This document shows, one piece after another, positions 5,501 to 46,799 of a stretch of DNA of 64,000 bases. A program made the position numbers and the translations under genes. How positions within the stretch are numbered: position 1 is the first letter of the stretch; each line of letters starts with the position of its first letter. The notes under the pieces are model-generated. The model was not told where the DNA came from. It saw nothing but the letters and a program-made list of their open reading frames with translations, and searched no databases. The stretch comes from Terebella lapidaria. Its lineage: Eukaryota > Annelida > Polychaeta > Terebellida > Terebellidae. The stretch spans positions 18,821,001-18,885,000 of the forward strand of contig OX424563.1 of NCBI GenBank assembly GCA_949152475.1. The letters run 5' to 3'.

Positions 5501-8500
5501 TCTTTTCATAATTGTTCACCAGAACCCACTTTTTATGTTTCATGGTTAAAATAGTCAGTGATTTCATGAAATTTTTGGTTACCATGGCAACCATTGTCCG
5601 GCTGGGTCCCTTAGCAACCATGGTTGCTAAGGTCAATATCTAATTAAAAACAGGACATACAGGAATGAAACTATTTCAGACAATGAATAATGACAATATA
5701 TTGTGGAATATATCAGCAAAATGTTTGAACACAACACTTAGCAACCAATAAAGGCATTGGAAACCAGTGATAATGGTATCCATTCACTTGCAATGGCTTT
5801 AAACATTGGTGATTTCTCAGGCCTGTATCGGTTGCTATGGTGTGTAGTTGAACAATTTGTTTATTAATTCCACTAGATATTGTCATTATCTCGTTATTTG
5901 TGTTGGTTTCATACTTTCATTTCGTGTTTTGACGTTAATATTAGCCTTAGCAACCACGTCGCTAAGGCCCAAATCAGCCTATTGGTTGTCATGGCAACCA
6001 AGATTGGCATGCACTCACTGACTATTCCTACTGGACAATATTTCTGATGGGTGTTGGTGACCAAATGTGAACATAAAAAGCTCCATTTTGTCATGTTAAG
6101 ACACCTAATTAAAAACCAGTCTGTCAATGACGTCACACATCTCATTTGCATATTAATTAGTTGTCAGATTCTGTTGTCAGATTCTGTGAATATGTAAATG
6201 TTTGAAGTGCCATAACTTTGGAAGAAATCATGATATCAATATGCTGTAAAGACTGTTTTGTTCAGTTCAAATAGTGCTTTCACACACACCTAAAAAACCA
6301 ATACCCAATTCTTGGTGACACATGCTCTTTAATACTGTACAAGTATATCATTGTCAAATATCTTTCAGCGACCAAGAAAAAGTCCAAGTACACGAACCAA
6401 GAGAAATGACTCGAAATCAAAAAGGTCCAAACCTAAAGGTAAGTTACCATACTCAGTGCAAGCACTGTTAAATAGAATTATTCTTATGCTAAATATCATT
6501 GCAGTTTATGTGTTTTGTATCAAATTCCTGATCTTAAATGTTTTTTTCTCATTCAGAGGGTTACTTAAGGTCATGTTTGCTTAGCCCAGCTTTGGCAAAT
6601 GTCGTCGGAACTGACAGGGTAAGGGGAAAGGATTGTACATGTATATAATAAGCTCTATTAGGAAAAATCAATTTATCTCATGAAGGGAGCATGCCTGCTG
6701 TATGGTGTCATTATGATATGGACCGACTGCCATTATGATATAGACTCGATCACACTACATGTACTTCCCTTGGTCTCATGACAACTTCAAATATAAACAC
6801 GCGCCATCTCGGAAATCTCAGGAAAATCAATAGTCTAAGAAATGCCATCTTCCACTTTTGTTCATCACATCAAGTGTGTTTTCTGAGTAGAACAATACTG
6901 GTGAATGTATACTGTAAACGTATAAAATTTTGCGTGTATTATTGTTCGCGTTTTCAACATCTCAACATGTTCGTGTGGATTTAAGTTCGTGACTGTTGTG
7001 AATGGTCGACCCCCCGACTGAATAACCGTGTATTCGCGTGTATTTATTTTCACGTTTTTTTTTTTTTTTTCAAACGCGAAATTCGCGAAATTAATACATC
7101 GCAAAATTTCATACGTTTACAGTAATGGATGCACTATTGGCGGGCCATTCGTTCGAGAGACGTCTCCTAAGCATCTACCACACTCAAAACCCAATGTTAA
7201 TAACGTTGTGACCGCGCACAAACTCGCCTCAGAACTGAAAGTTTCGGATCACTATCATAACCTCCACACGTTTTTTGACAATATAAATTTGCTATTCCAA
7301 GTGGACATCCAACCATCATACTTACGATCGTCACAAATACAAGTCATTGGGGTCGAAAATGGTTCTAATGACATCACCAATTGCATGTCAGTATCGACTC
7401 TTTGATGCCATACCCAGGCCTTCCAGGGTGTGGCCCCACCTGTACATATATGTGTAGCGTGATCATGTCACAAAATAGTATGTATTTTAGTATATCATAA
7501 TGCTCGTCTACCATAACTGAGGCTTCTGGGTTATGGATACATTTGTTCTATTTATCTCTATACATGTCTTCCTACCAATATCCTAGTCCATTGTTACGTG
7601 TATGTCATGTGCTACCAATCGTCGTCCTCTTGTCTGTTTTACTAAATTTTTTGTGTCTTTTTCCGACAGCTTCCCAACAATGAAGTTGTGAAGAAGATAT
7701 GGGAAATATCTCGAGAACGGAACCTTTTTGTAAGTGGTCTAAAAACAAAACAAAAAAATTGTTTGGTGTATTCATTCCTTTAATTTGTGTTTAACATTCC
7801 GTGCTATGTTCTATTTTATCCTCCACTTCCAAAAAAAAAGTATTACCTAAAGTTTTGCTCGATTTTTTTACAGGATCCAAAGAACAAGAGTTTCATTATT
7901 TGTGATGACGATTTTTACAAAATTTTCAGTAAGTTCCTTTTCAAATAATCTTCTACATGTAAGTGTATTTATTTACATTAAGCGACTCGACACAACTGCC
8001 ATTTAAAAGATTTATTGGACTAGGTGTGGTGCGATAGGAACAAACATGGAATGAAATGACTTGAATACATATGACGAATTAAGGTAGAAGACCGCCTTAA
8101 TTGTCAGACCACACACATGAATCGTTTGACATAAACACAGAAACAATCTTTGAACATACTACAACTACAATTATCTGACGAACAACCGTCCGTAAGTATT
8201 TAAGCCTAGGAAGCAAGCTACAAAACCAACTAGCTTCCGAACATCAAGATTAGAGAAATAACATGAGTATTTACAAGGTAAGGATTGAACCAATCAATTC
8301 ATCTTGCGAACACGGACGGCATGACTTGAATACATATGACGAATTAAGGCAGAAGACCACCTTAATTGTCAGACCACACACACGAATCGTTAGACATAAA
8401 CAATCATTGAACATATTACAACTAAAATTATCGGGCGAACACCGTCCGTAGTATCTGAGGATAGGAAGCAAGCTACAAAACCAACTAGCTTCCGAACATC

Positions 8501-11500
8501 AAGATTAGGGAAATAATATGAGTATTTACAAGGTAAAGCATTTGAACCAATCAATTTATCTTGCGAACACAGGCGGGACTCAAACAGATATGACAAAATA
8601 AACTAGAACCCATACCCATTGTAAGAACAACACATGGATACACGGAGACATTTTTGAACAGACTACAACTACAATTATCGACAAACAACGGTCCGAAAGT
8701 ACCTAGACTAAGGAGCAAGCTAGAAGACCAACTTGCTTCTGGACGGAGAGCTGACCCTAATGGTATGAGTATTTGCAAGGTGCAAAACATGGAACAAATC
8801 TATTCATATGAAGCAATGACTGAAGGATATGACAATGACTCGAGGTAGGTATTAATGGTGGTGGTTGGGGTAGGTGGAGGTAACAAAATCATAAAAGTTT
8901 TTCCTTCAGATTTCCTTCATTTTGGTTGGGCGGAACCGGAAGTTAGGATATGAGGAGATAAACAGTGCATGATGGGAACCGTACTTTCATGTATATATAG
9001 CGAATTTAAATTTGAGCACCACACCAGCGTCCATATGTAAATAAAGAGCTTTATTGCATGCATAAAGCATTATTTATTTACATTAAGCGACTCGACACAA
9101 CTGCCATTTAAAAGATTTATTGGACTAGGTGTGGTGCGATAGGAACAAACATGGAATGAAATGACTTGAATACATATGACGAATTAAGGTAGAAGACCGC
9201 CTTAATTGTCAGACCACACACATGAATCGTTTGACATAAACACAGAAACAATCTTTGAACATACTACAACTACAATTATCTGACGAACAACCGTCCGTAA
9301 GTATTTAAGCCTAGGAAGCAAGCTACAAAACCAACTAGCTTCCGAACATCAAGATTAGAGAAATAACATGAGTATTTACAAGGTAAGGATTGAACCAATC
9401 AATTCATCTTGCGAACACGGACGGCAAACAGAACGATGGAGTGATGCGGCGGAAACAGAACGATGGAGTGATGCGGCAAGATGAGACCTGGACAAGGCAC
9501 AAGAACAAGATTTAGGCGTAGACCAAAGTAGGTTTTATGTATGATTGATAAGCTGACGATTTCCAACGACCAACCAAGGCAATGTGGGATCTGGACTGAC
9601 CACTGACAGCCAGGTCCGTAGTTTTGCCAATCCGGAAAGAATGAGTATTGAAGAGGGAAGGGTCGTACCCAGCGTAGGACAGGTGGGTGTGGAGCCAGGT
9701 TTGGAGTGTACGGCGTTTCACAGGGAGTCCAGACTTATGAATAAATGCAGGACCAGAGAATGGCCCGCGGCGTGCTTTGTATTTCAACCAGGCCCGAACT
9801 GGACATGAAGCGTCGTTGGTGGCACGAAGAGCCAGGCGATAAGGACTGCTTTTGGAGTGTTTGAAGGAAGTGAAGGTGATGATTAACATTTTTTCAGACT
9901 GATCACTGGAGACAAGAAACTGATTCTCTTGTAGTGAATGAGCTGAGCTGGTAACATGACATGTTTCACTGACTCGCAAGGCGGCGTGGTACATAATAGT
10001 AAACATAGCCGTGATCAGACACCGGTCATACTTGGGCTGTTGATGTCTCTTAACAGATGCCAGGAGTTGGAGTAGAATGTTGAGAGTGATTGGTTTTCTG
10101 GTAGCAGGAGCTGGATCTGTTTTGGAATATGCAGAGAGCAACTTGCTGATAAGGAATGATCTGGTGGGGTTGGAGTGACCAGAAAGTTCGTGCATGAAGC
10201 CAATGGCTGAAAGGTGTGATCGAATGGAAGAGGCTTTCAGATGGTTGTCATGGAGATGGGCAGCGTACATAGCAATGTGATGGACGGTCGCAGGTATTTG
10301 CGCATGTACCTGTTTCTTCAAAAACCTTTTGAAGGCACGCCACGACCGCTTGTACGTGAGTTGAGCAGATGGAGACAGGGAAGACAAGGCGTCCATCTTC
10401 ACTCGATGCCGAAGTGCTCTGGTAGTAGATGCATGGGTATTGGCGTGGGGGTCGGATCCATCCGGTAACGTTGGAGCATCTCGGAGGTGACCTTGAAACG
10501 GGAAATGGCATCGGGTAAATGGTTAGAGATACCAGGAATATGAGTAGCTTTAAGACTTATGTTATGGCGAACGAGAATTAAGACAAGAGCCCTAACTATC
10601 GTCATGGCATGTTTGTTTTTGCTGGTTTGACGGTTGATGATGTCTTTGACAGCCTGATTGTCTGTACTGAACAGTATGTTGCTGTTTTGGATGTGGGAAC
10701 CGAAGAGGGCCATCATGACGTATATGGGATAGAGTTCCAGAACGGTTATGTGGAATGAAGCCCAATTTGGTGGATATGGACATTGGATCCACTGATGATG
10801 GAAACAGGCTCCAAAACCTTGATGGCTAGCATCTGAAGCCATACCAATAGCATCAGAATGGGTGATGTTCAATGCTCGGAAATATGTAACCCCGTTGTAT
10901 TGATTCATGAAATGCAACCATGTGGCTAGGTCATCCTTCACTTCCCGAGACAAACGAATGAAGTAATGAGGCTGTTGATGAGGCTTCAGCAAATCAATAA
11001 GGCGTCGCAAGAATGGTCGGGCGGGGATAACAGCCGCGGCAAAGTTAAGTTTCCCAATCAGAGATTCGAGTTGTCTCCTGGTTATCTTTTTCTGAAGAAG
11101 GGTGTGAGCGAGAACATCTCGATATTCTGTCAATTTATCCAAGGGAAGGCGGGCCAATTGGTTGACACTGTCAAGCTCGATTCCCAGAAAGGTGGTGTTT
11201 GTTGATGGAAGGGTAGTCTTTTTTGATGAGAGAGGAACTCCAATGTCTGTACACAGTTCAATGAAGGCTTGAAGATTGTAGTTGCACGATTGGAAGTCAG
11301 ATGAGAAGAAAATGAAATCATCAATGTAATGTAAGCAACGTCCAGCACCAGTGGGAGTGCAATGCTCGAAAATTGCTTGAAGTGCTGTAGAAAACTTCTC
11401 AAAAATGCTGCATGAGCTGGCACAACCCTGCGGTAGACATTTATCAAAGTAAAACTGTTGATCAAATTGCAGGCCGAGTTTGGGATGATCAAAAGGGTGA

Positions 11501-14500
11501 ATAGGGATGAGACGGTAAGCATCTGAGATGTCGGTTTTTGCAGACATAGCGCCTTTAGGAAGCTGAAGCAGGATCTTGATGGCATCACGGATGGAAGAGT
11601 ACTGAACTGTTTTGCAGCTGTCAGGAATACCGTCATTGATTGAGGTGCCATCATAAGGATGTGAAAGGTTGTGAATGAGTCTGAATTTTCCAGGTTCTGA
11701 TTTTGGTACGACAGTCAGTGGAGAAACATGAAAATTTGGAAATGGTGGCAGATCAAATGGACCTTCCATTCTTCCTGCAGAAATCTCAACTGAAAGTTTT
11801 TCCCTGATCACGTCACGATACTGATGTGTTGACTTGGGATTTGGAACTAAATGGTTAGTGATTGGGTCGGGATGGTGGAGGGGAAACCCAAAAGTGAAAC
11901 CAGTGACAAGATATTGAGATATCGTTTCATCGTATCTGGCAGATGCCAGATGATACTGGAGGCGGTCCGGGTGAATTGGAGTGATGATTGATGAGTTAGG
12001 GTTTGGATGGATGGGTCCCGCCTGACTTTGCGAATGGTCTGGCTTGAAGTTCTTGGGCGGGTTTTCCGGCAGTGGAGGGTTTCGGAACAGGAGTGGTGGA
12101 GGTTGACGAACACATTCGGTAGACTGGATGTCTCCCTTGGCATCGAGGGCATTTGTGCTGAAACTGGCATCCCATGCCGTTGTCACATCGCTCACTACGG
12201 TTGTGGAACCGGACGCAGTAACCTTTGGGGATGGAATGACCTTCGGAAGTCTTGAGCATGTTGGGGGCGGAGCGAAAGGACGTGGTTTGTTGTTTTTGTT
12301 GGGGACGAAAAAGCTGGCGTTGATAGGGTCCATACGAGATGAGAAGATCGCTCCGAACTGTGGACCAGGAACAGGGTACAAATTCGCGATCAGAGCGAAA
12401 GTGACGGTCATACGCTTGCCAGTCGTACCCCATCTTGTTGAGGTCGAAGATTTGTTTCTTGTAGGTGAGGAGCTCGGTGACCAAAGTGGACATAGATGAA
12501 GATGAGCGAGCTGTGTGCATATATATGGAGATGTAGGTGTCGAAAGCCAGTTGCCAGAGTTCGAGAGTTAAGTCTATTTTTGGTTTGTTTTTGATGAGTT
12601 TGGTGGAGTTATTGGCACCCTGACGGAGGACGAATTCTGGGGATGATTTTGTGAGGTACTGTGGAATCAGGAGGGCTAGGTCAATATAGCGGTTTTGCAT
12701 GATCTTGTTTCTCAGCTTCGAGGAAACGTTGGCACCCAGTGAACAGCCGAACGAAATGGTGGGATGGGAGATTAATGGAGTATTATCTGAATCTGAAGCA
12801 GAAGAACTCTCACCAGAGGACGTTGAGGAGGTACTGGTAGAGCGGGACCTGCGATGTTTCCGGGACTTCCGACTTCTAGACTTGCGATGTTTCCTGGAGG
12901 AGCCTGCGGAGGAGCTGCGGTGTTTGCGACGCTTCGAGGAGCAGACTGGAGAACTTTCCAAAGAATCCATTGAAGACTGATCTGAAGGGACGTTCTTGGA
13001 AGATTTCCTTGGAGGAGATCTGGATCTCTCTGGAGAAGCTTCCTCTGAGCTGGAAGGTGGATCACTGGGAGGACTGGAGCGCAGGCGTGGCCTTGAACGA
13101 GCCTCTGCTGCCAACTTAGCGCGCAATGCGCGAGCCTTCTGCAGGATGTTCTCTGCTGAGCTGGTGGAGGGCTGATCTTCAGGTTCCTGTGATTTTTTAG
13201 GTCGCCCCATGTTGACTGGAGAAAAATTGGGAGAAAAGAAATGAATGGATTACTAAAAAGTATTGTAATGGGGTATATAGATAGGCGAAAAATTCTGAAC
13301 TGTAGAGAGTGAACTGGGGAATGTATCGATAATATATGCAAAAGAACCCAATTACTGAACGTTTAGGTTCAGAAAAAATATGGGAGGAGGTGCATTACCA
13401 GATGGAAAATATTGCATAGCACTGGTACCATAGGACTAGTATTGAATAGCCATTAAGTGTAAAAAGGTTGGTGCATAACACCGGAATGAAATAAAATTAG
13501 TCCATAGGACTGGAAATAATGGAAAGGTAGTGCACAGCACTGGAACAAGTGCAAAGCACTGGTGTTAAATGGAGAATAGTGCATAGCACTGGTGTAAGGT
13601 AGGAGGTAGTGCATAGCACTGGAAATAAGGTAATGATAGTGCATAGCACTGGAAAAATGGATGGAAGTGCATAGCACTGGAATTGGATAAGCAAAAAAGG
13701 AATCTGACATACCGAACGTTTTCCAGAAATTGAGGGAGGAGGAGGAAGCTACCGGAATTTCCTGTTCATGAACAGGATCCCGTGCCTAACGCGGGCAGCG
13801 TAGTGGCACAAATGTTCACTGTTGACGTGTATGCCGTCGTCAGACCAGTCCTCCACTGGGCGGCTTGAAAATCCCTTTATTTTGTTGTGATAGAATAGTT
13901 TTTCGTTGGTGATGGACTTGCTGAGATAGTTGTTGAAGATTTTTGCATTCTCACGAAAAACATCCTGGCTGCACAAAAGTTTTCCCGAACGAGGGATCAC
14001 ACTGTTAATAGCGCAAGCTTTCACAGAGTCTGATGTGCTGAGTGCTTGCAAGAAATCCAATAATTTTGTGGCCAATTGTAAACACTGATTGGCATCAACG
14101 TCGACTAAGTTGGCCAAATCGTTCGAACCTATGTCCAGTAGCACAATGCACGAGTGCAGTGTTTGTGTGACGGGGAGGATTTCCCGAATCTTCAAGTCAT
14201 CTATAAGATTCACACGATCACAGAACGAGTAGATCCCATGGAATTGGTTATCCACTTCTAGGAAAACAGAGCCTCGGGCGGCCGAAATTGGCGAAATGAT
14301 GTTGGACGGATAACAGTACCTTTTCTCCGTCAGATAGCAAGAAAATCGTCTGATAAACGAGTGACCAATCAGCAAGCAATCCATGAATTCAATTCCTAGT
14401 TCTCTGAGTAACAACAATGTTCAAGAATGGCTGCTAAAGCGATAACAAAATCATAAAAGTTTTTCCTTCAGATTTCCTTCATTTTGGTTGGGCGGAACCG

Positions 14501-14773
14501 GAAGTTAGGATATGAGGAGATAAACAGTGCATGATGGGAACCGTACTTTCATGTATATATAGCGAATTTAAATTTGAGCACCACACCAGCGTCCATATGT
14601 AAATAAAGAGCTTTATTGCATGCATAAAGCATTATTTTATAAATAATAATAAATGATTTAGAATATTTGTGTCATTTTCCCTCCCAGAGCGCCGCAGAGT
14701 TCGGCTGTTCGGCTGCATGAAATACCTCGGTGATCATATAATCTCTAAGATGGATGAAGAACAGTTAGTATAG
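2506..14773 (+). CDS. DEK_C and SWIB/MDM2 domain protein (UAF30/SPP27-like), ten exons
   Basis: Predicted 279-aa nuclear protein. Exons: 2506-2548, 3497-3587, 3810-4008, 4202-4261, 4661-4774, 6369-6438, 6557-6618, 7670-7729, 7874-7928, 14688-14773; all introns are GT-AG and the joined 840 nt is open to TAG. Residues 1-57 form a DEK_C domain (KEILRGADLSQLSSKKVRKQ, then ELTNRRKEIDELL). Residues about 60-111 are acidic, 112-192 basic and Lys/Arg-rich, and 193-270 a SWIB/MDM2 fold (LLSPALANVVGTDRLP, VVKKIWEISRERNLFDPKNK, FIICDDDFYKIF, FGCMKYLGDHI). The family includes yeast UAF30 (RNA polymerase I upstream factor) and SWI/SNF-associated proteins; a role in transcription or chromatin is inferred. 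The last intron (7929-14687) was enlarged by an antisense Ngaro element. ATG 2506 was chosen because it opens directly into DEK_C. Confidence 0.88.
3142..3306. repeat. Short inverted-repeat element in intron 1 of the SWIB gene
   Basis: AATTGACCTATCGCCAAA near 3142-3160 is matched in inverse near 3288-3306 (TTTGGCGATAGGTTAATT). The sequence just after it, a 'gatgatccaa-acaaaactac' stretch, resembles 45795-45830, so it looks like part of an interspersed family. No coding content. Confidence 0.4.
5249..6328. mobile_element. Foldback element with long inverted repeats and TTAA target duplication
   Basis: The arms at about 5249-5640 and 5940-6328 are inverted copies of each other over about 390 bp with some divergence, starting AGAGCATGTGTCAC. 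Both ends are flanked by TTAA (5245-5248 and 6329-6332). It encodes nothing. TTAA targets are typical of piggyBac-like and Kolobok-like transposons; which one mobilised this copy is not visible. It fills about two thirds of intron 5 of the SWIB gene and ends 40 bp before exon 6, so the acceptor of that exon has only a short host-derived lead-in. Confidence 0.75.
6912..7122. mobile_element. TA-flanked MITE (Tc1/mariner-like ends)
   Basis: 211 bp with ends CTGTAAACGTAT and ATACGTTTACAG, flanked by TA on both sides (6910-6911, 7123-7124). The inside is rich in 'cgcg' and 'ttcgcg' and holds a T15 run. It lies in intron 7 of the SWIB gene. Ends of this type are common in marine invertebrate genomes. 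Confidence 0.65.
8322..8880. repeat. Diverged tandem copies in the Ngaro B2 side
   Basis: Two further, increasingly diverged copies of an approximately 250-bp unit, recognisable by 'gaagcaagctacaaaaccaa' and 'gagtatttacaaggta' variants. They extend the outer 356-bp B2 block, so the repeat unit is itself tandem (about three copies from 7966 to 8850). Confidence 0.65.
9512..10396 (-). CDS. Ngaro part: tyrosine recombinase
   Basis: About 294 aa, starting at an ATG just after the RT-RNase H stop. The N-terminal SAM-like core-binding part has AQLTYKRSWRAFKRFLKK. The catalytic part has ALRVSET, HSFRIGKTTDLAVSG and a GRWKSSAYQSYI C-terminal block carrying the tyrosine. It integrates a circular DNA copy without target duplication, which matches the ends seen here. 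Confidence 0.85.
   Translation of the reverse strand: MDALSSLSPSAQLTYKRSWRAFKRFLKKQVHAQIPATVHHIAMYAAHLHDNHLKASSIRSHLSAIGFMHELSGHSNPTRSFLISKLLSAYSKTDPAPATRKPITLNILLQLLASVKRHQQPKYDRCLITAMFTIMYHAALRVSETCHVTSSAHSLQENQFLVSSDQSEKMLIITFTSFKHSKSSPYRLALRATNDASCPVRAWLKYKARRGPFSGPAFIHKSGLPVKRRTLQTWLHTHLSYAGYDPSLFNTHSFRIGKTTDLAVSGQSRSHIALVGRWKSSAYQSYIKPTLVYA
10399..12411 (-). CDS. Ngaro part: reverse transcriptase-RNase H
   Basis: 670-aa open frame. RT motifs are visible (KTDISDAYRLIPIHP, LPQGCASSCSIFEKF, HYIDDFIFF), followed by an RNase H domain (GMASDASHQGFGACF, FSTDNQAVKDIIN, HIPGISNHLPDAISRF). This is the arrangement of DIRS-order retroelements. It copies element RNA into DNA. The frame begins inside the gag frame; expression by the overlap or read-through usual in this family is inferred. 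Confidence 0.85.
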   Translation of the reverse strand: MTVTFALIANLYPVPGPQFGAIFSSRMDPINASFFVPNKNNKPRPFAPPPTCSRLPKVIPSPKVTASGSTTVVSDVTTAWDASFSTNALDAKGDIQSTECVRQPPPLLFRNPPLPENPPKNFKPDHSQSQAGPIHPNPNSSIITPIHPDRLQYHLASARYDETISQYLVTGFTFGFPLHHPDPITNHLVPNPKSTHQYRDVIREKLSVEISAGRMEGPFDLPPFPNFHVSPLTVVPKSEPGKFRLIHNLSHPYDGTSINDGIPDSCKTVQYSSIRDAIKILLQLPKGAMSAKTDISDAYRLIPIHPFDHPKLGLQFDQQFYFDKCLPQGCASSCSIFEKFSTALQAIFEHCTPTGAGRCLHYIDDFIFFSSDFQSCNYNLQAFIELCTDIGVPLSSKKTTLPSTNTTFLGIELDSVNQLARLPLDKLTEYRDVLAHTLLQKKITRRQLESLIGKLNFAAAVIPARPFLRRLIDLLKPHQQPHYFIRLSREVKDDLATWLHFMNQYNGVTYFRALNITHSDAIGMASDASHQGFGACFHHQWIQCPYPPNWASFHITVLELYPIYVMMALFGSHIQNSNILFSTDNQAVKDIINRQTSKNKHAMTIVRALVLILVRHNISLKATHIPGISNHLPDAISRFKVTSEMLQRYRMDPTPTPIPMHLLPEHFGIE
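11996..13210 (-). CDS. Ngaro part: gag-like protein
   Basis: 404 aa. The N-terminal third is very rich in Ser, Arg and Lys (SR-like), followed by a globular middle and a Cys/His-rich stretch near the C-terminus (CDNGMGCQFQHKCPRC, a CCCH-like pattern). Position and composition fit the nucleic-acid-binding gag-like ORF of Ngaro/DIRS elements. Its end overlaps the start of the RT frame by about 0.4 kb. Confidence 0.7.
   Translation of the reverse strand: MGRPKKSQEPEDQPSTSSAENILQKARALRAKLAAEARSRPRLRSSPPSDPPSSSEEASPERSRSPPRKSSKNVPSDQSSMDSLESSPVCSSKRRKHRSSSAGSSRKHRKSRSRKSRKHRRSRSTSTSSTSSGESSSASDSDNTPLISHPTISFGCSLGANVSSKLRNKIMQNRYIDLALLIPQYLTKSSPEFVLRQGANNSTKLIKNKPKIDLTLELWQLAFDTYISIYMHTARSSSSMSTLVTELLTYKKQIFDLNKMGYDWQAYDRHFRSDREFVPCSWSTVRSDLLISYGPYQRQLFRPQQKQQTTSFRSAPNMLKTSEGHSIPKGYCVRFHNRSERCDNGMGCQFQHKCPRCQGRHPVYRMCSSTSTTPVPKPSTAGKPAQELQARPFAKSGGTHPSKP
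13390..13690. repeat. Hairpin mini-repeats inside Ngaro
   Basis: Eight or nine copies of GTGCATAGCACTGG or near variants, spaced roughly 20-60 bp apart, between the hydrolase and gag frames. Each unit holds AGTGC and GCACT and can fold into a small hairpin. This could be an RNA structure of the element's leader. Confidence 0.7.
13749..14384 (-). CDS. Ngaro part: SGNH-type hydrolase-like protein
   Basis: About 211 aa from the ATG at 14384. The string LLIGHSFIRR near the start, LLDIGSNDLA in the middle and DDGIHVNSEHL near the end match blocks I, III and V of SGNH/GDSL hydrolases. A hydrolase-like gene is known in several animal Ngaro elements; its substrate is unknown. Here it is the first gene after the A1 repeat, upstream of gag. 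Confidence 0.75.
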   Translation of the reverse strand: MDCLLIGHSFIRRFSCYLTEKRYCYPSNIISPISAARGSVFLEVDNQFHGIYSFCDRVNLIDDLKIREILPVTQTLHSCIVLLDIGSNDLANLVDVDANQCLQLATKLLDFLQALSTSDSVKACAINSVIPRSGKLLCSQDVFRENAKIFNNYLSKSITNEKLFYHNKIKGFSSRPVEDWSDDGIHVNSEHLCHYAARVRHGILFMNRKFR

Positions 14774-14884: not shown

Positions 14885-15240
14885 GCAATATTTTGGGCTT
14901 CATTTTACAACTGGTACATTATATCATACCAAATGTATTTGATCGCTAATTTACATAGACAAATCCAGTTTGATCAGTATTTGTTTTTTAGTCAGTATCC
15001 TGTTTTAAAAATCAGCGGTGGTGAATCATTAATATTGCAGCCATATCATTGCAATTCACACAACAACAAAAATATTTCGTCCAATTTCAAGTCTGCTTCA
15101 GCTCATGTCTGGCAGATGCTGACACCTTGTGGCTATTTCTAAAACTACAGTCCCAACATTGACACCTGCATGAAACCACCGCAAACGCAGACATCGTTAT
15201 TGATTGCTTGTCCTTGACATGTTTGGGTGAATGTAGGGAG

Positions 15241-15881
15241 TAGCCCCAGTGGTGACCCTGTACACAACTATTTTATATCTGATGTTTATGTTGTTGTGTG
15301 AGGGTCACAGTTCCTGGCAATTGCCCAGATTATCGCCCGGACCTTTGCAGCTTCAAACGGACATGAGAACAATGACAGGCTGCCATCCGAACATTTTATT
15401 TGTGAAGACGCATATCTTCGCTAGAAATCCGGTATATCAATTGCATGCCAGGTCCAGTTTATAACCAGATAACAGCTTACTTTCGCCAGGGGATAATTTT
15501 CAAGTCTTTTGCTCATGGCCGCTTCAAGGGAGTGACGGCCTCTGATTGGCTGGCTCGCCAAGGCCACCAAGGTCGTCTGGAATACGGTGTCCGAATGTGG
15601 CCATTAGTAACCTCGTTTTATTAAAACGTTGAATTGCCGTTGCAAACCATATCAGTGTACATTGGATGATGATACGGGTGTGAAATTTTTGTATTATGTA
15701 CCTCTGATTATTTTCTGTGAATGATACAATCATTTTATCAATAAAATAACTTTAAAAATACTACGTGTTGATTTTGTCACTTGGACATTTTTTTTATTGT
15801 TTTAATAGTTTTATGCTAATATCCCTCCTAAATATGGATCATGTGATCTGGTGCCAAATGCAAACATGGCTGAGTCAACAT
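15241..15881. repeat. Left 641-bp terminal inverted repeat with promoter and first codons of the helicase
   Basis: Matches 24093-24733 in inverse. It includes the helicase leader and its first five codons (MAEST), ending at the CAT after 'gagtcaa'. Promoter activity is inferred from position. Small frames inside it (15249-15464 and 15524-15733 antisense) recur in the other copy only because the DNA is duplicated. Confidence 0.9.
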
Positions 15882-17854
15882 CAGCATTTACTGCTATTCT
15901 TGAAGAAAGCAGAAAGAAAATGGGTATAAAGTACCAGTTCAAACCAGAACAGAGAGATGCTATCATATCTCTCTGTGGGAGGCAAAACATATTTTGTGTT
16001 CTGCCTACCGGTTTTGGGAAGTCCGACATATATGGTTTCGTTCCCGTGGTTTTGAACAAGGTATGAACTGCAGTTATAAACCAAATTGAATTGAAATTTC
16101 ATTGCATTTCATGGAATATTCCGAAGAATACAGAACGTTATGGTGAAAATTATTTTTAGCTTCATTCCGGCCCCCAAATTAAGTATATATATTTGCAGTT
16201 GCATCCGAACAACCCAGTTTCTGCACTGGTTATCAGCCCTTTAAGGTCGATCATGAAGGAGCAGGTCACAAAATGGTCCAGTCGTGGTGTGAAGTGTGTT
16301 GCACTTACACAGAAAAAGGAAATGGCACCCCAAGATATCGATGGCATGTAGTGGCACGCTTTATTTAGAACCAATATAGATTATAAGTTAAAAAGTGCCA
16401 CATTTTATTACAGTAAAAAATTTCTGTCGCAGATGTTCTGCAAGGGAGAATTACGTTACTATTCGCGACTCCCGAGAGTCTGTTTGCCGAGCCTTGGTTC
16501 TCCGTTATTCGAGAACAAAGGCGAAAGATATGTCTGATGGCACTAGATGAGGTGCACTGCATGGCTGTATGGTAAGAAAAGCGATAAAATCTAAGTTATT
16601 CATGTCAATAAATTATACTGATAGGTAAAGCATTAAACATGTCACTGAATTCTGCACTACGTGTATTCTATGTAGGGGTAATACATTCCGGCCAATGTAC
16701 CAGAAAGTTGGGAAAATTCGCTCCCTACTCAGCAAGGTGCCAATCTTGGCGGTCACGGCAACGATAACTGCAGATATGCAGAAGCAAGTATTCGAGCTGT
16801 TGCATGTGACTGCAGTGGACTTCAAGCACATTGTAGTTGTTCCAGATAGGTCAGTTATTCAGAATTTTTAGATTAATGAAATGAAAAAAAAACTCTGATA
16901 AATACACATGACATTCAAGTGTAAATTTTCACATTACAAATATGCAGGAAAAACATCAGCCTAGCCATTGACAATTCGACTGGTCAGTCTCTGAAGAATG
17001 ATCTGATGTGGTATGCGGAGGAGTTGAGAGACAAAAAATTAGCTGCTAGAAAAACAATTATATTCGCAAGGTATGAATATTAAATAAAGTGTGAATTTCA
17101 AAATTTTTCAATGTATGCTGTATTAGTTTCTAAAGTGTAACCAAGCAAGTAGTGGCCCGTCCAGATTATGATTGTAACCCAAAACCTCTTCCACATCAGT
17201 CATCCACTTTACCGCATTAGCTTATAGGAAATCCCGCTAGCCAATCTAGTTCGAATCCCATTCTGGGCTAGGCATTGCTTGGTTACTCAAGTGCAAATTG
17301 TAAACTGATATATACACCACAGGTCGATTGACACAGTGATGGAAATCTTCGGATTCATCTCGGATGTACTGGATGACAACCTGTATGATGGAGATACCGC
17401 TGTTGTGGAAGTTTTCCATGGACGCGTGGACCCAACTGCTGAGGAGGAAGTTCCACAGTCATTTGCCAAGGAAAATGCTTACCCTCGATGCATAATCACA
17501 ACAGTTGCTTTCGGGATGGGCATGGACATACCTGACGTTGAACTCGTTATCCATTGGGGCCCACCTAGCAACCCACTAAGCTACTGGCAAGAGGTTGGAA
17601 GATGTGCCAGGGAAGGAAGCAAGGGTATTGCCATAATGTACACTCCGCCTTTCTCGGTCAGCTCACGATTGCTGGAGGATCGTATGATGACTATTGTGCG
17701 CAAAGAAGTGACATGTATACGGAAGCTGATGCTCACTGAACTGAAGGTTGAGGGGATAACAGATCATGAAATTGAGCAATGTTGTGGAGGCCCAGCATGT
17801 TGTTCCAGATGCAATAGCGATTTATTGGCATCATACAAGACAAATTGTGATTAA
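15866..17854 (+). CDS. RecQ-family DNA helicase, transposon-borne, six exons
   Basis: 435 aa, a 3'-5' DNA helicase by family. Exons: 15866-16060, 16199-16343, 16433-16571, 16676-16849, 16948-17070, 17323-17854; joined length 1308 nt, open to the stop. Visible motifs: Q-motif-like YQFKPEQRDAI (residues 23-33), Walker A LPTGFGKS (46-53), DEVH box (152-155), TATIT (187-191), motif V TTVAFGMGMDIPD (about 318-330), motif VI QEVGRCARE (348-356), and a Cys cluster CCGGPACCSRC near residue 415 like the RecQ zinc site. It is a short RecQ without recognisable winged-helix or HRDC parts. Intron 2 seems to use a GC donor (16344). The start codon lies in the left inverted repeat. A role in unwinding transposon ends or copy intermediates is inference. 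Confidence 0.88.
17140..17288. repeat. Short inverted-repeat insert with tRNA-like A and B boxes in helicase intron 5
   Basis: GTAACCAAGCAA near 17140 is matched in inverse near 17276-17287. Inside, TAGCTTATAGG (17218-17228) resembles a Pol III A box and AGTTCGAATCC (17248-17258) a B box, about 20 bp apart. It could be a worn tRNA-derived SINE head or a small MITE. Confidence 0.35.
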
Positions 17855-17865
17855 GATTTCAACTC

Positions 17866-18477
17866 GTGTTTGTGACATTCATCAAATACTGACATACAAA
17901 ATTTAAAGATAAATAGATCTATCTTGGACAGTACAAAGGTGGTGATACAGAGATCAAGGGTTACTCTGTTCGTACTTGCTGCTTGTACAAACATGCACAT
18001 GACTGATGTCAAAACGCTACATTGCAGTCTGACTATTAAATACATGTACTCAACAGTTTATTTTCACTAGTCTCATTGGATTGGATGAACCAGGTGACAA
18101 TCATCTCAATTAGTCATATAGATAGCTTTGAGACTTCTATGTGCAATCCAACCATAACTATTCTGAGTACACGATTACAACGAGTTATTTTGGTAAGTTT
18201 CTCACTGACTTACAATTCTCCATCTCTTGATCAACATTTTAATGAAAATTTGAATCTTCAACTGATTTTTGTGACATTCATCGAATCCTGACATATCAAA
18301 CTTCAAAGATAATAACACTTAGCTTGGTACTCAACAGCTGAATTTCACTAGTCTCATTGGATGGGATAAAGTAGGCGACAACCATCTCAAATAAAATATA
18401 TATACCTCATAGACTCCTATGTGCACTTAAACATCAACAATTCTGAGAACACAGAACCAGTCATTCATGTGAATTTC
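17866..18477. repeat. Tandem duplication between the two convergent transposon genes
   Basis: An approximately 400-bp block beginning GTGACATTCATC occurs twice in a row (from about 17871 and about 18271), with shared landmarks such as 'cactagtctcattgga' and 'cttctatgtgca' variants. It separates the two stop codons and probably holds both 3' UTRs. No coding frame. Confidence 0.6.
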
Positions 18478-21400
18478 TCACTTATTTACAATACTTCTTC
18501 TCTTCATCAACATGTGATGCCATTTATCTGCCTGAGTGGTTAACATTTTCAGTTTTCGACCCAACTGCACAGGACTTTTCAGTGTCTTATCAATCCGAAA
18601 TGAGGGAAAGGACTTGTGCTCACGAGGTGGGCAGTAGGCGAACAGAGCTTCTGAAACGTTGGCGCTCACGAAGTTCCGAACCTCACTCTTCGGAGTTGAG
18701 TACTTGCTGCCGCACTTAGGTTTCGGATCGTCCGACAGCCCCAGCAACGATCCTGACAAGCGCTGTCTCACCTCATCACGCATCACCCCCGACATGCGAC
18801 TGCATCTCTCCACCTGCTGTGGGGTGTATACACCTCTGGAGTTCTTTATCATGGCTGAAACCAAACATCAAGGAATTGGAACCCACCACTAAAAGTTGCT
18901 AAACGAGACAATGAATATGTGTGCTGCCAATATGAAATTAAGAAAGGTTGGCTTTGCATGTCAACAGAAAACAGTACGGATTTCAGTAGTTCATCTAAGG
19001 TACACGGTAAAGACTTTGAATGAATATATTTACTTTTGAAAGAGTTGTTGAGGTGTTCGTTCACAAGATCTAGTCCTAAGTTAGCATCTGGCTTCCCGCT
19101 AGGATTAGCAACACGGTTCCAAATCAACTGGTGCGTCTCGGTGGATGGGAGTATACCACCAGTGTCTGCAAATTGTAATTGTCACTCAGAAATTGAAAGT
19201 AATCTTCGAACAAAAAATGTGTGAGGTTATGCCTGGTGTCAATCTTTCCTCTGAACAACATTTGTTATCAAAATATGTTTTGAGATGTGTTTCGTCTGAA
19301 GGGAAGCAAATTGCACATACTGGTTAGCAAGCGGTGTCCGATTCTCAGGTATCGTGTGTGTCCATTGTGCCAGAATGACAGCATGTCGAAACGCCAAAAC
19401 ATCAGCATGGCAGGTCCATCACCTTGGCGTACAGCGTCTCGTCGAACGATGTGGTTGAGACCGCGCCAGCACAGGTCTAAACTGTACTGCTGCACAGCGT
19501 CATCATCACTGGACATCAGCTCACAGCGCTCACTGCAGTACCAAGTCTCTGTTTGGGGAATAAACGATATGTGTGTAACTGGAATGAATCTCATTGTTTA
19601 TTGTGTATTTGCAAACTTATTATGTAATATAATATAAATATAAAATGTATTATATAAATTATAACCTGGCAATGGCGCTTGTTGTCGGATGCATGTCTGA
19701 TGATACCATTCTTTCCCAAGACACTTGTCCTCACGAGCACACTGGACCATGGGATCACCTGTACGCTGGCCACACAAGCAATAAATGTATGTGTCAACGT
19801 CTTGGCACTCTGGACAAAACCAATCATCTTCGGGCGCCTCTTTCATGATCGGTTGCAAACATGAGAAATGATACCAGCCATTACAGCAGTGGCTGTTGGC
19901 ACACTGTACCATCTCGTCATCCTTATCTGAAAACCATTGGAATAAATTGGAGATATGGTAATACATAAATGCAGAAACCCATAAGATCTCTTATGGGTTT
20001 CTGATGAATGCTATTATAATATAGGTATTTGTTTAACACATCATCTAATATATGTATGAAATGCAATGCCATATTAATTGATGTGCACCTTCTCTGCAGA
20101 CACAGAAATGAAACTCGTCTTCGTCCATGTCACTTCTATCATCTGAATTCTGATATGCAGATTTGACAGATTCCAGGTCCTCGTGTGATGGCTGCTGCCA
20201 CAGCTGGTCGACAATCTTCTGCGCCATGAGCCAAACCCATTGCTTGAGCTCTTTCCGATCCGATGGTAGGTCTGTCGGTGCGTCTTCTAGGGCAGAAATA
20301 TCAGCTATCTGCATGTACAGCAGAAGAGTCAACCCATTGGTTGATAGCTGCGGAATAAATCAGACAAAGTACAGAAGATGAAAATCATATATTATGATTC
20401 CATGATGCGTATTTTATTTAATAACATATATATATACATGTGTGGGAAAGGGTATTCAGCAATTTCTAACCTCCAACATGTCCCAAACCGACTGGAAATG
20501 TGACATGACAGGCAGGGTGGCATTGTTTCGATTGAAGAATGTTCGCGTCTGAGATAATGTTCCCACATCTGCTTCACCATGGTTGACACACAAAGTTCGC
20601 ATCGTGTCCTATGATTGACAGTAAAATGTGCAGGTGTATGACCTGAGGTAGTCGCTGGTTGTTGAACAATTCTGTAAAGCCACAACAAAATTGCATTGAA
20701 TTTTTGCATTGCATACCTCGAGCAAGATACCCTCTTTGTGGAATTCTTGGGGACTCTCGATGAAACAACCAAGATCGTGTGTCTTTGTGTGGAACATCGT
20801 GCGCGCTTTCTTGGCCTTGGTCATGCACTCGATGCTCAAACCATCCCCATGGCAGGCTATGTTGACAGGTGTTCCATCATCAGATACAGGAACATACTGT
20901 CGGAGATGGTCTAGTACCTGCAATGTTCCGGGAGTCCCCGAAGGATTTGCATCAATGACACCCAACTGACAGAGTTCACTCTTCTGTGCCATCTCTGTGC
21001 TGTGCTCGTGTTCTATCCGCCGGGTACATTCTGTTCCTTCCAGGCACGGGACATGGTCAACCAGAATCTGAGCAACCAGAACAGTCATGCGGTATCTGAG
21101 AGTGTCAAAGTCTGCCGGAGATGGTACAAAGGTTGATGGCGGGAGGTCAAGGGGTTTCGTTGGTAGAGAATCGCTTGTACGTGTATTCTTTGGTGCTGCA
21201 ACTCGATCTTTAGCAGCGAATGCCATGGTGTACATGTGGAACGTTTTCTTTCTGTCTGTCGTCTGGTGTTTGATCGTTGACTGGAACTGCACGTTGTCAT
21301 ATGTGAGACTGAATCCAGCCATACCCTCAGGTGCTTCTGTCGAGAATTGGAGACGCTTCCTGCCACCTGAGCCCCTGCTCTTACCAGTGACTTCTGTCGT

Positions 21401-24108
21401 GGCTGCCTAGATCACCAATTCAAAGAGACATTACTATGTATTGAAGGAGAGGATGGTGTACAACATTGTGTTAAATAGCTATAACTGTAATTACTGGTAT
21501 GAGTTCAATTTGAAAGTACAATCACAGGGTTGGGTACCATATCTTGGTATCCCACCTACCCAATTTACTAAAAACAAAATAATTTTCCACATACTCCTTG
21601 ACGTGCAAGCTTCCAGACTTTGACATTCTTGTCGTGGTCAACACCCAGTCGGTCAACCAGGCTCCGTGTGGCCTTCACACCACTGGAAAGTCCGAGGTAC
21701 TGGAGGTGAACGTATGTGGCTTGGGTTGCATTCTCACTCCATAGCTCCAGTCCCATGGCACTCTGGGTGAACTTATACTTTCTGGGAGCATTGCTATGCA
21801 AAAGCACTCCCATGGTCAGACCCGTTCGAGCATTCCACTTGAGTCTGGCCTCATTGGTACTGAGGTGCCTTAAAATCAAAATAAACTAATTTCAGTTGGT
21901 GTTTATTATATTTGGCTTTTTATAGTCAGTAACTTACCATTATTACATATTATTATAGTGATGGAATAACTGCATGTCAGGTGTTATGACGGAGGTAACT
22001 GCAACATTCTAGCGCTATGGGCGAGATCTAATAAATTTTCTGTACTAAACCCTATTTCATAAAGATGATGCAAAATTTCATGCCAAACCCCGACCACCTG
22101 CCCTACTAGCATATTTGAACCCATATAAATCAACAAAAAATAACCTACACGTTTGTAGGTTATTATCAGGGTTGGGTTCAATTAATTGAAAATCAATGTA
22201 GTTAAGTCTCAATGAAACCATAATTGTAATTGGGCATTTAGAGGAAAGCATATAATTGTGATAGCTTTCACTATAAATCAACATAATTGGAAAAAATGTA
22301 ATTTATTTACCATCGCATGTCAGAATGCTGAGTTGTTGACAGATCCATTTATTTAACCTTTTCACCACTCATGGTTACACTGCGTAACCATACCACACCC
22401 CTGTCGCTGTACTGATGGTTACGTTGTGTAACCATAACTTTGGTAACCAATAGATGTATAAATAACTGCCCACTGATTGTATTTAATGCTAAATATACCT
22501 GAATATACCTGAGAATGTATCTACACGCTTAACTAGCACATACATATTGCCACCGACTGAAATTTAGAAGCTTAGTTGACTGTTTAGTTAATTGAATAAT
22601 TACCTGTATTGAATTATATTTCATTACACATTCGAATATGGCTGTATGATAAAGAAAATGGAAATAGCCATCTGTTTGGTCCCTAGATTTTTTCTTTCCA
22701 CGGTAACTGATGAAATGGGTTTGAAAGTATACTACTAAAGTATTTAGACTTTGTTTTCACACATAATTATTCTGAAACATCTTTAAATAAAAATAATAAA
22801 ACATATAGAAATCCTATCAATTCATATATGAATCGGCTTAGTATGGAGGCTGAGGGGCGGGTCAGTAGCGAAAATGTCAAGTTATGTCATTTCTCAAGGG
22901 TATGTTGAGTGAACCTTGAACTTGACCTATTTGTGTGTGTATGTGTGTGTGTGTGTGTGGGTGTGTATGTGTTTCTCATTTTATGATATCCTTGGAAAAA
23001 TGTCTCCTAGAGCAACACAGACGTAACTTTGGGACTCGTCAGCAGAGTATTTTAATTCCTGATTTGTAGTATTTTGAGTTACCCTGTTTTATTCTTATGC
23101 TGTCACAAAAAAATGGGCAAAGTCTTCTTTATCCTTTGACCTAGATATTTCTATGTGGTAGAAAATTTTCAGTAATTGTCAATTAAAATAGTGGGACCAA
23201 TATTGTAATTGAAAATGGATTCCGTGTTTATTTTTTAAATGGAATTTTGCACACACGAGATTTGTATTTATGAAGCTTTATGTTCTAGGACAAATGCAAT
23301 TGTAATTGTCATAAATGTTTGAACCCAACACTGATTTTATATTATTATTGTATCATTTTATTGTATAATTTTATTGCACTTTTTGTTACTCTTTCTGTCT
23401 TGACTACCTCTTCTCCTTCTTTGGACCAAGGCTAACTTGGCTGCCTAATTTCTCCTGGCTTGGCATGGCAGCTCGCAAGCACGATGTCAAAAATGGCAAT
23501 TTCTCCAGACATTCGTCGACGACATCCTGCCAGGAGAACTGGTCCAACGTTGGCCCTGTCACCACGTCAGCTAGTGAGGTGATTTTCCCTTTCCGTCCAC
23601 GAGCCGATACACTCATTACCTCCCGCTTGACTGTATCTGTCATAACCCTGACAAGAGCTTCCTTCGCCGATGGGCTATTACACACTAGAACCTTGAAAGC
23701 TGACAAATACTTTGAGCTCTGGATGTACATGCAAGCTCTGTCTCTGTAGCTATGGTTTTCGTCAGCCTGCGCTTCTATATGTATTTGTTTTGGCTTGGGT
23801 GTTTCTTTCATGTCTAGTTGCTTGTGGGGTTGGGGTGTTCCCGGTAGCGACAATGCTGGCCTCTTAGCTGTAGTTGTTTTAATTGGTGTTACATATTTTC
23901 TTGTTTTAGTTCTTTTATTGAGAATAGTTTTTTTCTGCATAAGAGATATGCAATCTGTGCAAATATAACCACCGGTGTAGTTATGAATACTAGGGAACAC
24001 TCTCTTCACTGTGTGTGGAGATGCCAACTTTTGTAGTCGTTTTCTGTTAAAACCCTTAGAGGATTTCACAAATCTAAATGAACACGCTGAACATGTTGAC
24101 TCAGCCAT
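18478..24108 (-). CDS. DUF6589-like putative transposase with zinc finger and two internal PHD-type fingers, nine exons
   Basis: 1019 aa from joined exons (minus, in order) 24108-23408, 21868-21595, 21406-20717, 20608-20471, 20347-20089, 19926-19666, 19548-19321, 19165-19034, 18854-18478; 3060 nt, phases agree, open to the stop. N-terminus: CxxC pairs at residues 6/9 and 50/53, a ZAD-like finger. Residues about 234-600 and 770-1019 match, from memory, the invertebrate and fungal DUF6589 pattern: SLTYDNVQFQS, KHQTT, CHGDGLSIE, LIWNRVANPSG, GLDLVNEHLN and PPREHKSFPSF. Between the halves sit two PHD-like fingers (683-728 and about 737-785). Asp362, Asp513 and Glu887 are candidate metal ligands of an RNase-H fold (inference). 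Start ATG 24108 is in the right inverted repeat. DNA binding and strand transfer are inferred from element context. Confidence 0.8.
19973..20002. repeat. Perfect 14-bp-arm palindrome in a transposase intron
   Basis: AGAAACCCATAAGA, two bases, then its exact inverse. It lies in the intron between exons 5 and 6 of the DUF6589-like gene. Confidence 0.7.
22167..23333. mobile_element. Possible non-autonomous element with hAT-like ends, nested in intron 1 of the putative transposase
   Basis: CAGGGTTGGGTTCAA at 22167 and its inverse TTGAACCCAACACTG ending at 23333. About 1.17 kb of AT-rich noncoding DNA with a GT microsatellite (about 22930-22965) and two TGGTTAC...GTAACCA palindromes (about 22371-22432). 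No clean 8-bp duplication is visible, so the ends may be slightly misplaced. Confidence 0.4.
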
Positions 24109-24733
24109 GTTTGCATTTGGCACCAGATCACATGATCCATATTTAGGAGGGATATTAGCATAAAACTATTAAAACAATAAAAAAAATGTCCAAGTGACAA
24201 AATCAACACGTAGTATTTTTAAAGTTATTTTATTGATAAAATGATTGTATCATTCACAGAAAATAATCAGAGGTACATAATACAAAAATTTCACACCCGT
24301 ATCATCATCCAATGTACACTGATATGGTTTGCAACGGCAATTCAACGTTTTAATAAAACGAGGTTACTAATGGCCACATTCGGACACCGTATTCCAGACG
24401 ACCTTGGTGGCCTTGGCGAGCCAGCCAATCAGAGGCCGTCACTCCCTTGAAGCGGCCATGAGCAAAAGACTTGAAAATTATCCCCTGGCGAAAGTAAGCT
24501 GTTATCTGGTTATAAACTGGACCTGGCATGCAATTGATATACCGGATTTCTAGCGAAGATATGCGTCTTCACAAATAAAATGTTCGGATGGCAGCCTGTC
24601 ATTGTTCTCATGTCCGTTTGAAGCTGCAAAGGTCCGGGCGATAATCTGGGCAATTGCCAGGAACTGTGACCCTCACACAACAACATAAACATCAGATATA
24701 AAATAGTTGTGTACAGGGTCACCACTGGGGCTA
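24093..24733. repeat. Right 641-bp terminal inverted repeat with promoter and first codons of the putative transposase
   Basis: Inverse copy of 15241-15881. It supplies the leader and codons 1-5 (MAEST) of the minus-strand gene, after which the two genes diverge abruptly. The 8-bp duplication GTAGGGAG follows at 24734-24741. Confidence 0.9.
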
Positions 24734-24741
24734 GTAGGGAG

Positions 24742-29257: not shown

Positions 29258-30270
29258 TATGTACGGAAGCTCATATTCGCCACATAGAGGACCGCAACTT
29301 TTTAATTACAGTGTAATAACGCTGTAATACAGCGTTATAACGCTCTAATTTAGAGCGTTATAACGCTCTATTTTAGAGCGTTATTACGCTCTAAATTAAA
29401 CCGTTCACCTTCCTAGCATATTTCCATTATCGTGATTTGTAATAAACATATCTAGATCAGAATAATTTTGAGATTTCCCTACAAATGATTGAGCTGATGA
29501 ACTAGCAGGTCCGATGATGTCTCTGGCAGTGTAAATTAGAGCGTTATAACGCTGTAATTTACAGCGTAATTACGCTCTAATTACAGCGTTACTACGCTGT
29601 AATAGAGCGTTATAACGCTGTAAATTACAGCGTTATAATGCTCTAATTTACAGCGTAATTACACTCTAATTAGAGCGTTATTACGCTGTATTAGAGCGTT
29701 ATAACGCTGTAATTACAGCGTTATTACGCTGTAATTAGAGCATAATTACGCTGTAAATTACAGCGTTATAACGCTCTAATACAGCGTAATAACGCTGTAA
29801 TTAGAGCGTAACAACGCTGTAATTACAGCGTAATTACGCTGTAAATTAGAGCGTTATAACGCTGTAATTTACAGCGTAATGACGCCTAAATTACAGCGTA
29901 ATAACGCTGTAATTAGAGCGTAATTACGCTGTAAATTACAGCGTAATTACGCTATAAATTAGAGCGTTATAACGCTGTAATACAGCGTAATAACGCTCTA
30001 ATTTACAGCGTAATAACGCTTTAATTTACAGCGTAATTACGCTTTAATTTACAGCGTTAATACGCTGTATTACAGCGATATAACGCTGTATTAGGGCGTA
30101 ATTACGCTGTAAATTAGAGCGTTATTACGCTGTAAATTAGAGCGTTATTACGCTGTAAATTAGAGCGTTATTACGCTGTATTACAGCGTTATAACGCTGT
30201 ATTACAGCGTTATAACGCTGTAAAGAAAAAAGTGCATTCCTCCATCTGGCGAATATGAGCCACCGTAGGT
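29258..30270. repeat. Palindrome array bounded by inverted repeats
   Basis: From about 29308 to 30222 the DNA is built almost wholly of a 12-bp core, GCGTTATAACGC or variants (GCGTAATTACGC, GCGTTATTACGC, GCGTAATAACGC). Cores are joined by linkers such as TCTAATTTAGAG, TGTAATTTACAG or TGTATTACAG, which are themselves palindromic. There are several dozen cores, interrupted by one unique spacer (about 29403-29528). The block is flanked by GCTCATATTCGCCA (left) and its inverse TGGCGAATATGAGC (right), within diverged arms of about 32 bp. It looks like a foldback or MITE-type unit whose interior expanded. No coding content. Confidence 0.85.
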
Positions 30271-35210: not shown

Positions 35211-35522
35211 TTGGTGCTATGTTTGTTATGCTAAGCGATACTTACCTCTGACTCTGGGGTCGTGTAATTGGCGAGCCCTCATTCGCCAACCACACATGAA
35301 ATATGGGTGAAAAAGCTAAACGAAAGTTAGCCGGTCCGTTTAGACCCTGCGTTAGTAATGGTAGTTACCTGAGCAGTTCACCCTCCGTGTGGTAGCATAA
35401 TCGTGCCGGTCCACTGCCTCCCAGTTCACTTTTGTTTTTGGCGAGCTCCTGTCAACAACAACTTTGCGTCGCTCGCGATTGCCCCTTTGAAGTTTGGATT
35501 TTGGAACTTAGCTGTTTCTACG

Positions 35523-41045: not shown

Positions 41046-41320
41046 CTACGGCTCATCGCCTCACAAGGGACTCGACGACAGGTATGTAATCTCAGATTCT
41101 TCTGGATTACAAAGTATCTCTCAGTATACTATTAACTTCCGAGCTACTCTGTGGTTAATTAGTATTATAATTACTATAGGAAAGGAGCGGGTTCCTTATC
41201 CTTTATACAGTAATTATAGTCACTGGTATTATGCATAGTTCTCATCCTTCTACTTTCAGGGGATGATCTTGTGCAAGGCGTACTTTCTCTCTGAGGGGCC
41301 CACCACCGGCAGGCCATTCC

Positions 41321-41409
41321 CCAGAGTCAGAGGTAAGTATCGCTTAGCATAACAAATCAAAAGTTCTAAAATAACTTTTATTTTTATACTATGCATACTT
41401 ACCTCTGAC
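41321..41409. repeat. DIRS internal complementary region
   Basis: One side matches the inverse of the left outer end ('agtcagaggtaagtatcgct'); the other matches the inverse of the right outer end ('aaaataacttttattttt' side). The two meet near 41355. This is the DIRS signature for making a circle. Confidence 0.8.
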
Positions 41410-41732
41410 GTTGGATGGTCCCACCCTCCTCCCCGCTGATTATCTTCTTGTCTTTTCAGAAGATAACCTTCAGTGATCAAGTGTTGCAACTCAACAAAAG
41501 TGAACTGGGAGGCAGTGGACCGGCACGATTATGCTACCACACGGAGGGTGAACTGCTCAGGTAACTACCATTACTAACGCAGGGTCTAAACGGACCGGCT
41601 AACTTTCGTTTAGCTTTTTCACCCATATTTCATGTGTGGTTGGCGAATGAGGGCTCGCCAATTACACGACCCCAGAGTCAGAGGTAAGTATGCATAGTAT
41701 AAAAATAAAAGTTATTTTAGAACTTTTGATTT

Positions 41733-46579: not shown

Positions 46580-46666
46580 CTTGTAAAGTTTCTCGGTCCT
46601 CTTCGTAGATCTGCTAAGTGCAAGCTCTGTCGATGAAGTTATGCCCCATCCATTTCTGCTCGCGTA

Positions 46667-46672
46667 CTTATA
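46667..46672 (-). promoter_or_regulatory. TATA box of the H1 gene
   Basis: TATAAG on the minus strand, 88-93 bp upstream of the ATG, in a GC-rich stretch. The distance fits a leader of about 60 nt. Confidence 0.7.
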
Positions 46673-46799
46673 GGGCGCGCGCGGACCTCAGAGTGGCACG
46701 CGGCTCGCAGGTGCCCGAGTCGGTGCGCGGATAACAATTCATGCAAACTCTGTGCTAGATGTTCGACTTTACGCCCTTATAGACGCAAGAATACTGTAT

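Follow-up and report, generated by a model that had tools for sequence, protein, structure and literature searches.

The locus considered here lies within a 64,000-bp stretch of the Terebella lapidaria genome, which was analysed in full and is called the window below; all coordinates are window coordinates. Positions 15241-24733 hold what appears to be a complete DNA transposon of 9,493 bp, which carries two predicted genes, one for a RecQ-type helicase and the other for a protein of the DUF6589 family. The element is bounded by terminal inverted repeats of 641 bp each, the left one at 15241-15881 (forward strand) and the right one at 24093-24733 (reverse strand). These arms are 100% identical, with 0 mismatches over 641 positions and divergence starting at position 642, and the likelihood that such a perfect repeat arose by chance is negligible. 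Outwards, the inverted repeat cannot be extended, because the first outside base is G on either side. The element is directly flanked by two copies of the 8-mer GTAGGGAG, at 15233-15240 and at 24734-24741, which match at 8/8 positions and constitute the presumed target-site duplication. With the boundaries fixed, a match at 8/8 positions would arise by chance with a probability of about 1.5e-5 by simple reckoning; on direct reading of the sequence, moving the element boundary by one or two bases does not lengthen the duplication. The 17-bp terminus, with up to three mismatches allowed, was found twice in the window against 0.07 expected, both times at the ends of the element. Overall, the inverted repeats and target-site duplication expected of a DDE cut-and-paste transposon are present here.

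The RecQ gene occupies positions 15866-17854 of the forward strand and was delineated by gene modelling, homology and motifs. Its six exons (15866-16060, 16199-16343, 16433-16571, 16676-16849, 16948-17070 and 17323-17854) join into an open frame of 1,308 nt with a single terminal stop, encoding 435 aa. Four of the five introns have GT-AG borders; the remaining one, intron 2 (16344-16432), has a GC-AG border, and using the GT available 4 nt downstream would lose the frame. Among Pfam models, the product matched DEAD (E 9.7e-20) and Helicase_C (E 5.2e-17), while its nearest relatives in PDB were the WRN, RecQ, BLM and RecQ4/Q5/Q1 helicases (best E 1.5e-36). PDB yielded 134 matches, of which the 60 best were examined, and the best 37 were all RecQ-family chains. 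TIGR00614 was the best NCBIfam model, with an E value of 2.9e-59, though its score of 201.1 bits is below the curated cut-off of 219.8. All five of the RecQ motifs looked for are kept, namely TGFGKS (Walker A), DEVH, TATIT, AFGMGMD and QEVGRCAR. The C-terminal 51 residues contain a cysteine cluster reminiscent of the RecQ zinc module; no Pfam model matched this segment. Judging by these features, the predicted protein has the SF2 motor core of a helicase closest to RecQ, and it would be a minimal one, composed of the motor core and a Cys-rich tail, with no recognisable HRDC domain.

The second gene runs in the opposite direction (18478-24108, reverse strand) and is composed of nine exons: 24108-23408, 21868-21595, 21406-20717, 20608-20471, 20347-20089, 19926-19666, 19548-19321, 19165-19034 and 18854-18478. 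Joined, they give 3,060 nt of open frame with a single terminal stop, encoding 1,019 aa, and all eight introns have GT-AG borders. The first intron (21869-23407, 1539 bp) is mostly occupied by a hAT-like insert with short ends (approximately 22167-23333, CAGGGTTGGGTTCAA ... TTGAACCCAACACTG), for which a perfect 8-bp duplication is absent. The Pfam family DUF6589 (PF20231) covers residues 414-930 of the product with an E value of 1.4e-32 and 113.3 bits against a curated cut-off of 27. Each half of this region also exceeds the cut-off when taken alone: the first half aligns to profile positions 8-210 (E 2.8e-13, 49.8 bits) and the second to positions 281-400 (E 4.4e-14, 52.4 bits).

The question of whether this protein is a transposase deserves separate comment. 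We picked a candidate catalytic triad by eye, which would consist of D362 and D513, both encoded by exon 3 (20717-21406, reverse strand), and E887 in the context GLDLVNEHLN, encoded by exon 8 (19034-19165, reverse strand). Against this choice of triad, D362 lies upstream of the Pfam DUF6589 match, which starts only at residue 414. Searched against Pfam, the protein gave only DUF6589, PHD and sub-threshold matches, and no named DDE model was among them. An AlphaFold2 model of exon 3 alone, built from a single sequence, has the order strand-strand-strand-helix-strand, which would suit an RNase H-like core; at a pLDDT of 36.4 (pTM 0.20), we give this order no weight. We infer the catalytic fold from context: apart from RecQ, no other large gene than that of DUF6589 is present in this element, which has inverted ends and a target-site duplication. 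On this basis, it is plausible that the DUF6589 protein is a DDE transposase.

The DUF6589 region is interrupted by two PHD fingers (approximately residues 680-785, encoded by the region of exons 5-7, 19321-20347, reverse strand), both lying between the two profile halves. The closest match of the first finger was ING1 (E 1.2e-10), with ING3 also found; the second was closest to ING2 (E 1.8e-6), followed by YNG1 of yeast (E 5e-6), and when taken alone it scored 18.4 bits, below the Pfam cut-off of 24. In ING proteins, an aromatic residue before the first cysteine and a Trp preceding Tyr-His form a cage for trimethyl-lysine 4 of histone H3. According to our alignments, the first finger retains F and the second finger Y at the aromatic position, and both retain the Trp. 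The element may be compared with RAG1/RAG2 and ProtoRAG, in which a DDE recombinase is guided by a PHD finger recognising H3K4me3. However, in RAG1/RAG2 and ProtoRAG the PHD finger belongs to a separate protein (RAG2), while here two PHD fingers are found inside the core of the putative transposase itself. A precedent for PHD fingers in a transposase is provided by Rehavkus, a MULE-related group; as tabulated in the literature, Rehavkus differs in having 9-bp duplications and a MULE-related transposase, with RecQ not being listed in that table, whereas our element combines an 8-bp duplication, DUF6589 and RecQ.

The RecQ and DUF6589 genes are convergent, with stop codons 623 bp apart. The spacer between them (17855-18477) contains polyadenylation-like hexamers on both strands and most of a diverged duplication (18046-18237 and 18327-18513, within the region 17858-18513; about 77-85% identity), which slightly overlaps the end of the DUF6589 CDS. 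At the outer sides, each gene has its start codon in its own inverted repeat, 16 nt from the inner edge; the left arm includes the presumed 5' leader and the initial 16 nt of the RecQ CDS, and the right arm the corresponding parts of the DUF6589 gene. Both proteins begin with MAEST, because their start codons fall inside the inverted ends. We infer that the inverted repeats serve both as transposon ends and as promoter, leader and start for the two genes, the promoter and the leader being presumed.

These observations agree in large part with the sequence-only reading of the locus, which had described 641-bp inverted ends free of differences, an 8-bp duplication, a RecQ-type helicase and a DUF6589 protein. 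We also rebuilt its two convergent spliced genes, whose open frames measure 1308 and 3060 nt; both models were predicted from genomic sequence alone, and their splice borders were set to keep the frame with the previously reported CDS lengths already known, so the agreement in length is not independent. Its view of the element as complete and recently mobile stands as well: since identical inverted ends, a perfect duplication and intact frames are all found in the single copy examined, recent mobility of this DNA transposon is well supported by the anatomy of that one copy. The identity of the 641-bp arms may be due to recent transposition or to gene conversion between the ends, two causes that one copy cannot separate.

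The window contains several other features, of which the ORFs were assigned by eye. ORFs at 9515-13249 (reverse strand) resemble a DIRS-type element with a reverse transcriptase and a tyrosine recombinase. Near these ORFs, there are two pairs of direct repeats with 100% identity, one of 356 bp (7966-8321 and 9071-9426) and the other of 195 bp (8881-9075 and 14443-14637); the direct repeats in 7966-9432 and 14443-14637 are perhaps split ends of this DIRS-like element. A second set of long ORFs, DIRS/Ngaro-like, is found at 35373-41042 (forward strand) within the region 35223-41705, where it is flanked by an inverted pair of approximately 214 bp and 98% identity (35223-35436 and 41493-41705). 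LINE-type reverse transcriptase ORFs, split across more than one frame, are located at 2-1406, and a histone H1-like ORF at 46037-46687 (reverse strand). Along with the spliced genes of the element, the DIRS-like, LINE-like and histone H1-like ORFs suggest an animal-like eukaryote as the host, which bears on a link to AcademH as a lineage of animals and fungi; the H1-like ORF may serve as a clue to the host. Dense local repeat arrays were observed at 29262-30267, with direct and inverted copies, and at 43023-45213.

Relatives of the element were sought in viral and prokaryotic sequences. Searches with exact 8-residue peptides, which reach close relatives only, gave no pattern matches for the DUF6589 protein in viral contigs and four in prokaryote genome contigs, none of them confirmed; for the RecQ protein, none of three pattern matches in viral contigs was confirmed. 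One stretch of DUF6589, searched for as a degenerate DNA pattern, had no matches in viral contigs, and tblastn of the 604-aa DUF6589 core against phages revealed no relative at E up to 1. The exact 17-bp end occurs in 39 viral contigs, where the longest extension was 1 base past the pattern (in two contigs). When the 641-bp arm was compared with those contigs by blastn, the best among the matches listed was 18 bp (E 0.014), and tblastn with the two proteins yielded nothing beyond two RecQ matches of 24 residues (E 0.63). We take these matches as chance.

In the published record, the closest counterparts of the element are to be found among Academ transposons. The sequence-only reading knew of no named superfamily in which a transposase is joined by RecQ, and ascribed another type of helicase to Academ. 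Neither claim is supported: 'RecQ Helicase in Academ' appears in a list published in 2013 with reference to Kapitonov et al., where a role in transposition is noted as having been suggested for this helicase (PMC3627910), and RecQ is also reported for KolobokH (PMC9587614). As the title of a cited work indicates, AcademH is a helicase-encoding Academ lineage of animals and fungi (Kojima 2020, Mob DNA 11:15). The relevant lines of PMC10045372 give target duplications of 9-10 bp for AcademH and 3-4 bp for AcademX and ascribe the distinction between AcademH and AcademX to the helicase and nuclease that they encode. In PMC10799480, the domains DEAD, Helicase_C, PIF1 and Helitron_like_N are assigned jointly to AcademH, KolobokH or Helitron, and DEAD and Helicase_C are also matched by the RecQ protein of our element, which resembles AcademH in bearing a helicase. 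It differs from AcademH as described there in the length of its duplication, 8 bp (GTAGGGAG, from a single copy) against 9-10 bp. At 9,493 bp, the element also exceeds the mean of 5,565 bp given for Academ consensus elements of bivalves, though about 1.2 kb of it resembles a nested insert. A search of openly licensed PMC papers for Academ, XPG and transposase together retrieved none.

Kolobok offers a second comparison. According to the Kolobok passage of PMC9587614, KolobokH encodes RecQ and is reported only from fungi, Kolobok-1_CCri has a RecQ helicase on the complementary strand, and the Kolobok target duplication is TTAA (4 bp). The likeness lies in the combination of a DDE transposon with a RecQ helicase; the differences are the 8-bp duplication GTAGGGAG and the DUF6589 protein. 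We rejected an identity with Kolobok or KolobokH on the grounds that the duplication is 8 bp rather than TTAA. A Helitron was rejected too, given the inverted ends and the duplication, and no Rep or PIF1 Pfam model was reported.

Overall, the most likely explanation of the locus, to which we assign a probability of roughly 0.7, is a complete, coding-intact cut-and-paste DNA transposon that carries RecQ, is Academ-like with AcademH as its nearest counterpart, and uses the DUF6589 protein as its DDE transposase. Within this explanation, the ends, the duplication, the two open genes as predicted and the protein families are established at the level of sequence. We regard the element as working in the manner of AcademH and as a probable relative, a likeness judged from descriptions of AcademH. 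We do not file it under AcademH, because its duplication is 8 bp instead of 9-10 bp.

Several alternatives should be weighed against this explanation. DUF6589 proteins might form a DDE superfamily of their own, apart from Academ and Kolobok, with RecQ acquired independently and the 8-bp duplication as its own hallmark. Such a superfamily would fit a duplication that matches neither the 9-10 bp given for AcademH nor the 3-4 bp given for AcademX, but the duplication length is not fixable from one copy. The word 'DUF6589' is absent from the openly licensed PMC papers searched, and 'PF20231' occurs there only in an unrelated optics paper; however, this proves little, as transposon papers may skip Pfam DUF numbers and the search concerned openly licensed literature only. 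Moreover, the pairing with RecQ has already been described for Academ (PMC3627910), and a helicase-bearing Academ lineage exists, by its title, in animals and fungi. We consider a separate superfamily unlikely. A bolder version seems less likely still: a DDE superfamily so far unrecognised would have acquired RecQ separately from Academ and Kolobok, would have two histone-mark readers in its catalytic core, and would insert at H3K4-methylated chromatin with dedicated RecQ processing of its ends.

It is quite improbable that the RecQ gene is a passenger captured from a host, with no role in transposition. In favour of a capture, RecQ genes are widespread in eukaryotes; yet the RecQ start, with the presumed leader and promoter, lies within the terminal repeat, mirrors the transposase gene and specifies the same first five residues. 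The retention of all five helicase motifs looked for also speaks against a passenger, as does the recurrence of RecQ in Academ (PMC3627910) and KolobokH (PMC9587614), to the extent that these sources describe it. The least probable possibility, to which we give very little credence, is a hAT, P or Zisupton element with cargo genes. The 8-bp duplication would suit it, as 8 bp is the length reported for Zisupton and, usually, for hAT. However, Pfam models of the hAT, P or SWIM type were matched neither by the whole proteins (E up to 1) nor by five protein pieces (E up to 10), in which the first PHD finger and its flanks as well as the bulk of RecQ are not represented; furthermore, DUF6589 is the sole large gene apart from RecQ.

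Returning to the Academ-like cut-and-paste transposon, we can propose how it might operate. The DUF6589 transposase would recognise the terminal repeats with either its basic tail or a CxxC...CxxC segment near the N-terminus; it would then cleave the ends and insert them into target DNA at positions staggered by 8 bp. Its core contains the pair of ING-type PHD fingers, which could tether the transposase to open chromatin methylated at H3K4. For the RecQ protein, a role in unwinding or remodelling is conceivable, either at the transposon ends or on gapped intermediates of target and donor, and it might also promote repair of the donor gap by homology-directed filling. With each inverted end supplying the promoter, leader and start codon of one gene, RecQ and DUF6589 would be co-expressed, and gene conversion between the ends might keep the inverted repeats identical.

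Our analysis leads us to conclude that the element is a well-preserved variant of a transposon type already in print, and not a new kind. The novelty of joining this type of helicase with a transposon falls; the interest left is in an intact gene pair read from two repeats and in a pair of ING-type PHD fingers within the core of the putative transposase. To our knowledge, the role of the Academ RecQ helicase in transposition has never been assayed, and the present copy, which seems intact, with perfect ends and two open genes, is a candidate for testing the part that RecQ plays in cut-and-paste transposition. The PHD pair, with its methyl-lysine cage positions kept, makes H3K4me3-guided integration directly testable. 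Finally, if the DUF6589 protein is indeed the transposase, a function would be attached to the Pfam family DUF6589.
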